Shown here one piece after another: positions 29,051 through 32,658 of a stretch of 64,000 nt of DNA. The stretch covers positions 1,674,001 through 1,738,000 of the forward strand of contig NZ_CP119787.1 of assembly GCF_029338255.1 (NCBI RefSeq), written 5' to 3'. This stretch comes from Haloarcula halobia. Its GTDB lineage: Archaea > Halobacteriota > Halobacteria > Halobacteriales > Haloarculaceae. Within the stretch, counting starts at the first letter, position 1, and the number at the start of each line of letters is the position of its first letter. The notes beneath the pieces are model-generated. The model made no database searches. It had not been told where the DNA came from and saw only the letters and a list, made by a program, of their open reading frames with translations. The position numbers were made by a program, and so were the translations under genes.

Positions 29051-29056
29051 TTTATA
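29051..29056 (+). promoter_or_regulatory. TATA box of the cofD operon
   Basis: TTTATA 25 bases upstream of the ATG at 29081 indicates a leaderless transcript for the whole cofD - Dus-like - CitG-like - DUF447 set. Confidence 0.6.
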
Positions 29057-29080: not shown

Positions 29081-30073
29081 ATGGTGACGTTCCTCGCCGG
29101 CGGGACGGGCACGCCGAAACTCCTCGCCGGCGCCGACGACGTGTTCCCGCCAGCCGAGACGACAGTCGTCGCCAACACCGGCGACGACGTCGAGCTCGGC
29201 GGCCACCTGGTCTGTCCGGACCTGGACACGGTCCTCTTCCTGGAGGGCGGCGTCCTCGACCGGGAGACGTGGTGGGGCATCGCCGACGACACGGCCGAGA
29301 CACACGACGAGCTTCACCGACTCGCCGACGCCGCGGGCCTGGCCGGGGGGCCACAGTATCTGCCGGACGAGCGACAGACCGACGGTCGCGACGTCGCCGC
29401 GTGGCGCCGGTTCTCCGGCGTCGCCGAGTTCATGCACATCGGCGACCGCGACCGCGCGGTCCACGTGACCCGTACCTCCCTGCTCGATTCGGGCCACTCG
29501 CTGACCGAGGCCACCAGCCGGCTCGCCGACGCCTTCGGCCTCGAGCGGACGCTCCTGCCGATGAGCGACGACCCCGTCGCGACCATCGTCCACACCGACG
29601 ACGGCCCGATGCACTTCCAGGAGTGGTGGGTCGGCCGCGACGGCGACCCGGCGGTTCGCGACGTCGAGTTCAGGGGTGCGGCGACGGCCACGCCGACCGA
29701 CGCGGTCCGGACTGCACTCGAGGCACCCGTCGTCGTCGGTCCGTCGAACCCGGTCACCTCCATCGGGCCGATGGTCGCCGTCGACGGCATCGAGCGCGCG
29801 CTCGCCGACACGCCGGTCGTAGCCGTCTCGCCGTTCGTCGAGGACGAGGTGTTCTCCGGGCCGGCCGCCACGCTGATGGCCGGGACCGGCCTGGAACCGA
29901 GCACGGCGGGCGTCGCCGAGGCGTATCCCTTCGCCGACGCGTTCGTCCTTGACGAGGCAGACGGGACGGACCTCGGCCGGCCCGTCGTCCGGACCGACAC
30001 GACGCTGGACACCGACGCCGACGCCGCACGGGTGGCCCGAGCCGTCGAGACGGCGCTCGGGGAGGTGGCCTGA
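29081..30073 (+). CDS. cofD: 2-phospho-L-lactate transferase (F420 biosynthesis)
   Basis: A 330-residue CofD. The N-terminal [37 protein letters not shown] and the later [13 protein letters not shown] motifs bind the activated phospholactate-GDP and the deazaflavin Fo. The reaction makes coenzyme F420-0. The TGA overlaps the ATG of the next gene by one base. ArfC-type riboflavin synthesis elsewhere in the window supplies the shared pyrimidine precursor. Confidence 0.94.
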
Positions 30074-30819
30074 TGTTCCGCCCCCGCCTCGCGCTGGCGA
30101 GTCTCAGCGGCGAGGCCGACGCCGACTGGGCCCGCGACGGGGCCGCACACGTCGGGTGTGCGTTCCTCGGCGGTGTCTCGCTGGACGAGCCGACGCGCGC
30201 GGCCGCCCGTCGGCTCGTCGACAGGGACCGCTCGGAGTTCCTCCCGACGGACCCCGTCGCCTTCGTGGACGCCCAGCTCGGGGCGCTGGTCGACGTCCCG
30301 ATCCGTCCCGCGTTCAACGTTCGGACCACGTCGCTGGCGGCGACCGAGCGCGCCGCGCAGGTCTGTGCCGACCACGACGCGATGCTCGAAGTGAACGCCC
30401 ACTGCCGACAGGACGAGATGTGTGCCGCCGGCGCCGGCGAGGCACTGTTGCGACGGCCAGACCGACTGGCCGACCACGTTCGTGCGGCCAGCGACACGGG
30501 GGCTGCCGTCTCGGTGAAGGTCCGGGCCGAAGTCGACGGCGTCGACCTCCCGGCCGTGGCCGCGGCCGTCGACGACGCGGGTGGCGCCGCCATCCACGTC
30601 GACGCGATGGACGCGGAACCGGTCGTGGCCGACGTGGCCGACGCCGCCTCGCTGTTCGTCGTCGCCAACAACGGCGTGCGCGGCCGACCCTCTGCCCGGG
30701 AGTACTTCGAGTACGGGGCCGACGCGGTCAGCGTCGGCCGGGCAAGCGACGACGTGGGGGTCCTCCGGGCGGTCAGGGCCGAGGCCGAGGAGTGGGTCGG
30801 CCGGGAGGTCACCCGGTGA
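30073..30819 (+). CDS. Archaeal Dus-related TIM-barrel protein
   Basis: A 248-residue TIM barrel related to tRNA-dihydrouridine synthases (the archaeal NifR3-related group). It has the flavin-binding beginning (LALASLSGEADADW), an NAHCRQDEMCAAGAGEALL stretch that aligns with the NCGCP...GG.G.ALL catalytic region of Dus, and SVKVRAEVDG. The exact catalytic Cys-Pro is not kept (HCRQ), so activity on tRNA is doubtful. It is shorter than Dus and lacks the C-terminal tRNA-binding domain. It overlaps cofD and the next gene by one base each. Confidence 0.75.
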   Translation: MFRPRLALASLSGEADADWARDGAAHVGCAFLGGVSLDEPTRAAARRLVDRDRSEFLPTDPVAFVDAQLGALVDVPIRPAFNVRTTSLAATERAAQVCADHDAMLEVNAHCRQDEMCAAGAGEALLRRPDRLADHVRAASDTGAAVSVKVRAEVDGVDLPAVAAAVDDAGGAAIHVDAMDAEPVVADVADAASLFVVANNGVRGRPSAREYFEYGADAVSVGRASDDVGVLRAVRAEAEEWVGREVTR

Positions 30820-31655
30820 TGGCTCGGGACGTCGCCCAGAACGCCGAGCTGGCGCTCCTGCTCGAGGTCACCGGGACGCCCAAGCCGGGCAACGTCGACC
30901 GCGAGCGCGAGTACGACGACCTCCGGTTCGAGCACTTCATGGCCGGCGCCGTGGGCGCACGGCCGGGGCTCGAACGCGCGGCGGACGGCGAGCGGGTCGG
31001 GCACGCCTTCGAACGGGCCGTCGCCGGGATGGCCCAGCAGTCGGCCGGCAACACGCAGTTCGGCGCGCTGTTGCTGCTGGCGCCGCTGGTCGCCGCCGCG
31101 AGCGACGACGCACTCTCGCCGGCGGGTGCCGACGCCGTGGTCCGGGCGACGACGGTGGCCGACGCCGCGGACTTCTACCGGGCGTTCGAGCACGTCGACG
31201 TCGCGGTCGAGGACCCGCCCGAGGGGCTGGAACCGCTCGACGTCCGGCGCGGGAGCGACGCGGTTCCCGCGCTCGAAGCGCGCGACCTCACGCTGTTCGA
31301 CGTGATGGAGCGCAGCGCCCCGGTCGACGGTGTCGCTGCCGAGTGGGTCGGGGAGTTCGAGCGTGTGTTCGACGCGGCCGCGTCGGTTCTCGACGGTGAC
31401 GGGCCGGTCCCGGACCGCGCCGCTCGCGCGTTCCTGGAACTGCTGGCCGACGAACCCGACACGTTCGTGGTCAAGCGCCAGGACCGGGCGACGGCCGAGG
31501 AGGTCCAGCGACGCGCGCAGGCGGTCCTCGACGGCGAGGAGGACGCGACGGACCTGGCCGATGCGTTGGTCGCGCGCGACGTCAACCCGGGGACGACGGC
31601 CGATCTGATCGCCGGGGCGCTGTTCGTCGCGCTCGAACGGGGGCTGGTCGTGTGA
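30819..31655 (+). CDS. CitG-like (triphosphoribosyl-dephospho-CoA synthase family) protein
   Basis: A 278-residue all-helical protein of the CitG/MdcB family. TGTPKPGNVDREREYDDLRFEHFMAG corresponds to the family's conserved Pro-Gly-Asn-Val-Asp segment and AGNTQFGALLLLAPL is typical. The true CitG makes the prosthetic group of citrate lyase from ATP and dephospho-CoA, but no citrate lyase is present. In archaea and methylotrophs the family is linked to C1/pterin or F420 clusters, and its substrate there is unknown. Overlaps both neighbours. Confidence 0.75.
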   Translation: MARDVAQNAELALLLEVTGTPKPGNVDREREYDDLRFEHFMAGAVGARPGLERAADGERVGHAFERAVAGMAQQSAGNTQFGALLLLAPLVAAASDDALSPAGADAVVRATTVADAADFYRAFEHVDVAVEDPPEGLEPLDVRRGSDAVPALEARDLTLFDVMERSAPVDGVAAEWVGEFERVFDAAASVLDGDGPVPDRAARAFLELLADEPDTFVVKRQDRATAEEVQRRAQAVLDGEEDATDLADALVARDVNPGTTADLIAGALFVALERGLVV

Positions 31656-32254
31656 GCGACGACGTGCCCGACGACGCGGCGCCGTGGCCGGCCGCCCTGG
31701 CCGGCGTCACCGAGACCGTCGTGACGACTCTGGGACCGAACGACCGCTGGAACGCCGCGGCGCTCGGCGTACACGAACCCGCCGACGACGGCGTAGCGAC
31801 GGCGACGACGTGGGGCCGGACCCGGACCTGGCGGAACTTCTCGGAGCGCGGCGAGGGCTACGTGCAGTTCACCCGTGACCCGGTCGACTTCGTGGAGGCC
31901 GCTCTCTCCGTGCGCGAGGAGACTGAGCCGGTGCTCGACAGCGCGGACGCGTGGGCCAGAGTGACGGTCAGCGAGCGCGAGGACGGGACCGACGCGGGCA
32001 CCCAGTGGGTGACGTGGGCGCTCCGGCCCGTCGAGTCCGCAGTGTGCCGTCGCGTCGTCCCGACGACCAACCGCGGGCACGCGGCCGTCGTCGAGGCGAC
32101 GGTGGCGGCGTCGCGACTCGACGTCGCTGCCTACGACCGCGAGGCGCTGCTGGACCGGTTGCGCTACTTGGAGTCCGTGGTGGAGACGGCCGGGAGCGAG
32201 CGCGAACGGACCGCATTCGAGCGACTCGAGACCCTCGTGGACGCGGAGTGGTAG
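31652..32254 (+). CDS. DUF447 family protein
   Basis: A 200-residue protein starting GTG, overlapping the CitG-like stop by four bases. [50 protein letters not shown] and [24 protein letters not shown] are the conserved parts of DUF447, which adopts a flavin-reductase-like split barrel. In methanogens and C1-metabolising bacteria it accompanies the CitG-like gene. The order here suggests a shared pathway with CofD, which remains inference. Confidence 0.85.
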
Positions 32255-32466: not shown

Positions 32467-32658
32467 ATGGCAATCAAACCCGCCTACGTCAAGAAGACAG
32501 GGCGACTGCTGATGGAACGATACCCGGACGCCTTCGGCGCCGACTTCGAGCACAACAAGGACGTCGTCGAGGAGCTGACCAACATCGAGTCCAAGGGCGT
32601 CCGCAACCGCATCGCAGGCTACGTCACCAGCAAGCAGAACGCCGCCGTCGAAGCGTAA
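32467..32658 (+). CDS. rps17e: 30S ribosomal protein S17e
   Basis: A 63-residue archaeal/eukaryotic-type protein. [48 protein letters not shown] matches the conserved S17e core. CTTTTTGAG at 32437-32445 is about 27 bases before the ATG, giving a leaderless message. It is a stand-alone gene converging on mrp. Confidence 0.95.

Follow-up and report, generated by a model that had tools for sequence, protein, structure and literature searches.

The first committed step of methanopterin synthesis is catalysed by enzymes of the beta-ribofuranosylaminobenzene 5'-phosphate (RFAP) synthase family, and the finished cofactor bears an alpha-ribosyl 5-phosphate on deoxyribitol and a phosphodiester to 2-hydroxyglutarate; we know of no assignment for several of the enzymes acting between RFAP synthase and finished methanopterin. 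CitG of Escherichia coli (b0613, ATP:dephospho-CoA triphosphoribosyl transferase) moves a 5-triphosphoribosyl group from ATP onto a hydroxyl, forming an alpha bond and releasing adenine; a phosphodiester is made afterwards by CitX. Meanwhile, tRNA-dihydrouridine synthases (Dus) usually carry the catalytic motif GCP, and a C-terminal helical tRNA-binding domain is their hallmark. Relatives of CitG and of Dus are encoded together in Haloarcula halobia, in a block of four genes ordered CofD, Dus-like, CitG-like and DUF447, within a stretch of 64,000 nucleotides (NZ_CP119787.1, positions 1,674,001-1,738,000 of the forward strand), here called the window, to which the positions of the block refer. 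The finding proved real, and it is stronger than in the sequence-only reading of this DNA, as an unlinked gene ties CitG and DUF447 to the RFAP synthase family; it is also weaker, as the block is not one functional unit and its pair of CitG and DUF447 is unlikely to serve F420.

All four genes lie on the + strand and overlap by 1, 1 and 4 bases with no gap inside the block, as that reading had described. The first encodes CofD (29081-30073), the 2-phospho-L-lactate transferase of F420 biosynthesis, which scores 379.9 bits against the equivalog TIGR01819 (cut-off 257.45) and is thus a member of it, its initial methionine being an invariant column in seven haloarchaeal sequences. It is followed by a Dus-like TIM-barrel protein of the flavin mononucleotide (FMN) type with 248 amino acids (30073-30819), a weak match to PF01207 (31.7 bits, cut-off 20.4), and by the CitG-like protein (30819-31655), which at 233.3 bits against PF01874 (gathering score 27) belongs to that superfamily. 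The last gene (31652-32254) encodes the partner of CitG, a DUF447 protein with both its N- and C-terminal domains (PF04289 and PF20766, 87.8 and 64 bits), which has homologous solved chains (2iml, 2ptf and 2nr4) and which we take to be of the FMN-binding split-barrel type.

The link with the RFAP synthase family is seen in gene loss. Among 293 haloarchaeal genomes that are at least 90% complete, where RFAP synthase was searched as TIGR00144, CitG is missing in three (G012, G039 and G163), DUF447 in the same three and in G252 (92% complete, 360 contigs), and RFAP synthase in the same three and in G185 (170 contigs) and G333 (70 contigs). The hypergeometric probability of this nesting is 2.4e-6, or 1.4e-4 when G012 and G039, which share a genus, are counted as one, both values being optimistic because the genomes are related. 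G163 is Halobacterium salinarum DSM 3754, with a CofD 100% identical to the CofD on NZ_VRYN01000007.1, and CitG and RFAP synthase were both matched in 11 further members of its genus included in the draw; since these sisters keep the genes, the losses happened at least twice, independently, provided that the genera are sound. In the genome of the window, RFAP synthase lies 1,386,401 bases (1.39 Mb) from CitG, so that a single deletion of neighbouring genes is no explanation there. A search of H. salinarum by tblastn (E up to 1) detected neither CitG nor DUF447 in the interval from Dus to the gene of ribosomal protein S17e, and at both g14 loci S17e stands directly 3' of Dus, at the place expected for CitG-DUF447. 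Strain DSM 3754 (L137, 8001-11192) is thereby a natural knock-out for CitG, DUF447 and RFAP synthase. Among 14 control genomes, S. acidocaldarius, M. jannaschii, Haloferax volcanii and M. acetivorans match all three families, and E. coli matches CitG only, with no match to DUF447 or RFAP synthase. CitG and DUF447 therefore occur with the beta-RFAP synthase family, with exceptions that are given below.

The proteobacterial tetrahydromethanopterin/methylofuran cluster (mptG, mch, orf5, orf7, fae, orf17; orf19, orf20, afpA, orf21, orf22) likewise has RFAP synthase-family, CitG-family and usually DUF447 genes. A tblastn search of plasmids with the CitG of another member of the phylum (L098) gave 20 matching records, of which 19 come from Proteobacteria, and RFAP synthase and mch are found near CitG in all nine of the proteobacterial loci examined. 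DUF447 falls within the stretch read in seven of these nine, Azoarcus KH32C having all the genes, and in a tenth locus (L122) fhc genes accompany DUF447 and RFAP synthase. The bacterial gene order is mch-RimK ligase-CitG-fae-HisA-like and DUF447-DUF6513-flavoprotein, and the published one, in the part of PMC3615186 that was available, is mch-orf5-orf7-fae-fae-orf17 and orf19-orf20-afpA, a correspondence that makes CitG the presumptive Orf7, DUF447 Orf19 and DUF6513 Orf20. The last of these has pterin-binding matches below their cut-offs. A different equation, of Orf5 and Orf9 with CitG and DUF447, was wrong, since the accessible portion of PMC8141765 gives Orf5 as an ATP-grasp ligase and Orf9 as a MfnF homologue; there, too, Orf5, OrfY and Orf17 are described as needed for methylofuran and all cluster genes as essential on methanol. 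CitG and DUF447 thus lie in known methanopterin gene clusters. Unlike the bacterial arrangement, the window's genome keeps its RFAP synthase far from CitG, haloarchaea add CofD and the Dus-like gene, and no methanopterin-type dihydropteroate synthase (DHPS) passes its cut-off in the haloarchaea tested.

Regarding gene order in relatives, haloarchaeal CofD loci were found by scanning contigs with a CofD alignment, and the best 80 of 217 confirmed loci were counted. CofD-Dus-CitG-DUF447 is the order found in 71 of these 80 named loci, so the block is conserved beyond chance; the remaining nine comprise eight with CofD-Dus only, of which L165 and L176 end at a contig end, and one with CofD only. 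CofD-Dus stands without the pair, within the stretch read, in Halobellus (L160, L188, L195) and Natronococcus (L206, L210), and L205 has CofD alone. For the phylum, 120 genomes were drawn and adjacency was taken from one best match per genome (112 DUF447, 114 CitG and 73 Dus rows), counts that leave out second matches and a 20-bit Dus row of G127. DUF447 is present in 112 and CitG in 114 of the 120 genomes, and the two genes are adjacent in 97 of the 110 that have both, namely in 16/16 haloarchaea and 81/94 others, the latter assumed to be mostly methanogens. Eleven of the 13 exceptions fall in family f22, and most concern separate contigs of fragmented genomes. A TIGR00736-type protein adjoins CitG in 54 of 70 genomes with both; of the 16 genomes in which it does not, 13 belong to f21. 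Members of the MJ0144 family above the TIGR00736 cut-off occur in 11 of these f21 genomes and in no other genome of the draw, and there they lie away from CitG. The Dus/marker 9-CitG-DUF447 block of the non-haloarchaeal genomes has the same order of homologous genes. A further 20 non-haloarchaeal loci (L096-L115) were chosen from genomes with the pair together, and no frequencies are drawn from them.

The sequence-only reading took the products of all four genes to be needed together and recommended a check of their co-occurrence. The closeness of CitG and DUF447 and the conserved order were borne out by it; the idea of one inseparable four-gene unit was not, and it is rejected, as CitG-DUF447 is gone but CofD-Dus retained in G012, G039 and H. 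salinarum. It is also contradicted by L080 and L090, where CofD-CitG-DUF447 stands without Dus at the locus; no TIGR00736 match exists in the whole genome of L080 (G003), and for L090 (G010) Dus is absent at the locus read. The tight pair of the block is CitG and DUF447, and the block is made of separable modules.

The explanation that we narrowly favour, taken as a whole, is that the block is a cofactor-biosynthesis operon of separable modules, in which CofD would make F420-0, and CitG and DUF447 would form a second module, part of a methanopterin-type branch. That the pair belongs to a methanopterin-type pathway is probable, given the conserved order, the co-loss and the bacterial clustering. 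In such a branch, the RFAP synthase-family enzyme would join phosphoribosyl pyrophosphate to p-aminobenzoate (pABA), a flavin-dependent step, for which DUF447 is a candidate, would modify the ribosyl-arylamine, and the CitG-like enzyme, by analogy with the action of CitG on dephospho-CoA, would use ATP as the source of a ribosyl 5-(tri)phosphate and so give the alpha-ribosyl linkage in the side chain of an RFAP-derived cofactor. The CitG-like protein is proposed as a ribosyl or triphosphoribosyl transferase because the linkages match between the CitG product and methanopterin, and by this analogy ribosyl transfer is a tentative assignment that may well turn out either way. The motifs KPGxV and PGxxAD are common to the CitG-like proteins, E. 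coli CitG and two bacterial cluster proteins. Within the partial coverage of the literature surveyed, nothing joined methanopterin with triphosphoribosyl-dephospho-CoA or tetrahydromethanopterin with CitG, and no pterin role for DUF447 was found. Cannula formation, a role for DUF447 met in the available text of PMC13140500, is not supported by the distribution of DUF447 seen here.

The branch as proposed would need a haloarchaeal enzyme that makes RFAP. Two haloarchaeal RFAP synthases pass the subfamily TIGR00144 (158 and 162 bits, cut-off 113.5), the pABA-binding arginine R26 (MTH0830 numbering) is kept in the haloarchaeal sequences aligned, and the phosphate loop HVGLGSGTQ is kept in nearly all of them. 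In a FastTree tree of 38 sequences, two pairs of which are the same gene twice, the haloarchaeal enzymes, those of the bacterial clusters and one further archaeal sequence form one clade with support 1.0, and six weak paralogues from elsewhere in the phylum fall outside it. Because R26 and the loop are kept and the clade includes the bacterial enzymes, the haloarchaeal enzyme may well make RFAP, as judged from these sequences. Weak RFAP synthase-like proteins of about 60-84 bits were also seen in non-haloarchaeal genomes (L222-L226 and L232), and the pABA arginine is absent at the aligned position in the six read. The haloarchaeon G309 has an extra RFAP synthase-like protein of 287.8 bits (L238, 552-1577) beside a 161-bit copy, the score of the extra copy being closer to those of other phylum members. 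In seven of nine loci, the haloarchaeal RFAP synthase gene has a KaiC-like ATPase gene 3' of it on its own strand (e.g., L136, 10829-11668), with transcription factor S further on; as a clue to the pathway, these neighbours gave no hint.

Several observations weigh against a methanopterin-type branch in haloarchaea. At 171 and 170 bits, the same two haloarchaeal proteins fall short of the equivalog NF040726 (cut-off 328), and residue D19 of MTH0830, the characterised enzyme, is replaced by asparagine in the haloarchaeal sequences aligned; a D19N mutant of RFAP synthase is partly active, according to the part of PMC6787355 available. The methanopterin-type DHPS relative TIGR00284 is above its cut-off in none of 20 haloarchaea, compared to five of five other phylum genomes. 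Mch is retained in 24/24 haloarchaea tested, including those that lost CitG, DUF447 and RFAP synthase, and therefore the product need not be a one-carbon (C1) carrier used by Mch. As argued in the accessible sections of PMC8305020, haloarchaea use folate and HVO_2628 is not an RFAP synthase, and PMC8141765 warns, in its available part, that earlier cluster mutants had secondary mutations and incomplete complementation. In addition, the association of the three families has mismatches. G185, G333 and, in the phylum draw, G141 have CitG and DUF447 but no RFAP synthase. The remaining ones all have RFAP synthase: CitG alone is missing from G130 and G139, DUF447 alone from G074, G092, G099 and G143, and both from G148. 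Several of the mismatched genomes of the phylum draw are incomplete. As a separate observation, weak TIGR00284 matches (18-26 bits) occur in all three genomes that lost the trio and in two of 17 other haloarchaea (G003 and G193), the former perhaps holding more ordinary DHPS.

The strongest of the competing explanations gives the three haloarchaeal proteins (RFAP synthase-like, CitG-like and DUF447) a joint role on some other C-nucleotide or arylamine cofactor, one that is not methanopterin and does not carry C1 units, the pathway having been repurposed after the switch to folate. Such a history would suit the loss of the trio without Mch, the failed equivalog and the change of D19 to asparagine, the lack of a methanopterin-type DHPS above cut-off in the 20 haloarchaea tested, and the folate assigned to haloarchaea in what was available of PMC8305020. 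It fits poorly with the retention of R26, with a GLGSGTQ loop that is nearly always kept and with the clade shared with the bacterial cluster enzymes, and it is regarded here as unlikely.

The next explanation is that CitG, DUF447 and the Dus-like protein are accessory to F420, modifying it or a precursor after or beside CofD. CofD comes first in the haloarchaeal block, and outside the haloarchaeal set it is also found near CitG, with CofE upstream, in L101, L107, L108 and L114, a neighbourhood that would fit an F420 link and so counts against the methanopterin-type branch as well. In L114 (7665-10737, family f26, outside haloarchaea), CofE, CofD, CitG and DUF447 follow one another in this order on one strand. 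However, G012, G039 and H. salinarum, which lack CitG and DUF447, still have CofD and the Dus-like gene, S. acidocaldarius has the trio and no CofD match, and the annotated bacterial CitG loci sit among methanopterin genes. Because of the retained CofD and of S. acidocaldarius, an F420 step for the pair is thought unlikely, and the accessory role as a whole is improbable. The suggestion of the sequence-only reading, an unassigned step in F420 or C1-pterin metabolism, is thus upheld for CitG and DUF447 on its C1-pterin side, by the co-loss with RFAP synthase and the bacterial clusters, and is not supported on its F420 side. F420 and methanopterin are both built on a ribityl 5'-hydroxyl and both serve C1 metabolism. 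The recurring neighbourhood of CofD and CitG may reflect this common chemistry or C1 role.

Regarding the Dus-like protein, it shares with tRNA-dihydrouridine synthases (DusB, DusC, DUS2) and with dihydropyrimidine dehydrogenase a TIM-barrel fold (Z about 20-23) and a cysteine at the GCP position. An AlphaFold2 model built with 39 sequences (predicted local distance difference test, pLDDT, 95.8; predicted template modelling score, pTM, 0.93) is a TIM barrel, and its nearest folds, tied at the top, are dihydropyrimidine dehydrogenase (in its C-terminal part, Z 23.4), the catalytic domains of Dus enzymes (Z 20-23) and dihydroorotate dehydrogenases (Z 20-22). This modelled fold and the kept stretch GADxVxxGR suggest that the protein binds FMN. 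The motif of the protein is E-x-N/D-A-H-C-R-Q (ExNAHCRQ in the window), with HCR in place of GCP; the glycine and proline are replaced and the cysteine is kept, Cys111 being found in 30 of 31 aligned homologues (the exception is L104) and in 39/39 haloarchaeal ones, so the claim that the CP of the catalytic motif had been lost does not hold for the cysteine. At L104 (8399-9376, G127), a strongly diverged Dus-like protein lies 5' of CitG, with the AHCRQ motif gone and no Pfam match. The best NCBIfam match of the window protein is TIGR00736, the MJ0144 family, which it fails (103.2 bits, cut-off 218.7). Outside haloarchaea, the Dus-like neighbour of CitG is longer, with frames of 370-413 amino acids in most loci read, and the one scanned with NCBIfam (L096, 7861-9027) has a C-terminal methanogenesis marker 9 domain (TIGR03277, 168 bits). 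The haloarchaeal protein is homologous to the N-terminal part of this longer protein and too short for the marker 9 domain. L096 ties marker 9 to CitG and DUF447.

If the block were a set of unrelated housekeeping neighbours, the Dus-like protein would reduce tRNA uridine and the clustering would be historical. The Dus fold with its one conserved cysteine, the presence of S17e (32467-32658 in the window, 3' of the block) within the stretch read at 62 of the 80 named loci counted, and the loss or retention of Dus independently of the other genes would all agree with this. However, Dus chains of 290-324 residues align to the model only up to residue about 256, so that the modelled 248 residues comprise the catalytic barrel only, with no C-terminal RNA-binding domain, the DusB equivalog reaches 23 bits against a cut-off of 293, and the gene order is kept in most loci counted. 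Moreover, dihydrouridine is absent from the tRNA of H. volcanii, as far as the available part of PMC2584109 goes, although this species matches TIGR00736 below its cut-off. The absence of both an RNA-binding domain and dihydrouridine indicates that the Dus-like protein probably does not act on tRNA, as the sequence-only reading had implied, and a merely historical cluster is hard to credit. Under the favoured reading of separable modules, the Dus-like protein would be an FMN-dependent reductase of a small molecule, linked to the block and dispensable; the evidence goes no further than an FMN reductase of a small ring. It has no fixed place in the branch, because it survives where the trio is lost and is lost in G003, where the trio is kept.

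As for a role of the CitG-like protein in making the prosthetic group of citrate or malonate lyase, its membership of PF01874 would allow it, but this role is rejected on the CitG and MdcB equivalog scores (40.9 and 43.4 bits, cut-offs 272.3 and 282.35) and is extremely improbable, with 24% identity to E. coli CitG, an archaeal clade of CitG-like sequences (all but L114) that excludes E. coli CitG, and no cit or citrate lyase gene among the nine window genes scanned, a genome-wide search not having been made.

Upstream of the block, a TATA-like box TTTATA (29051-29056, + strand), read directly in the sequence, lies 25-30 nucleotides 5' of the CofD start. From its position, this box is probably the single promoter of the whole block, which would then be leaderless.

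In the literature surveyed, which was covered in part, no role was found for the CitG-like and DUF447 genes of the bacterial clusters. If the proposed pathway is right, the majority of haloarchaea may still produce a methanopterin-like cofactor, contrary to the view that they lack it. A bolder version is that nearly all haloarchaea, H. salinarum excepted, make such a cofactor beside folate, like Methylobacterium, and that methanogens, methylotrophs and haloarchaea alike have in the CitG homologue their missing alpha-ribosyltransferase of methanopterin synthesis, with ATP as the donor, setting the 5-phosphate for the later phosphodiester to 2-hydroxyglutarate in the manner of CitG and CitX; this we consider possible, yet rather doubtful. 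If true, the statements in the available part of PMC8305020 that methanopterin-specific enzymes are absent from haloarchaea and that HVO_2628 is probably not an RFAP synthase would need revision. Gene families that owe their present names to citrate lyase and to a domain of unknown function would also gain a role, and the co-loss link makes the gap in methanopterin synthesis testable in the genetically easy H. volcanii, with H. salinarum as the natural knock-out.

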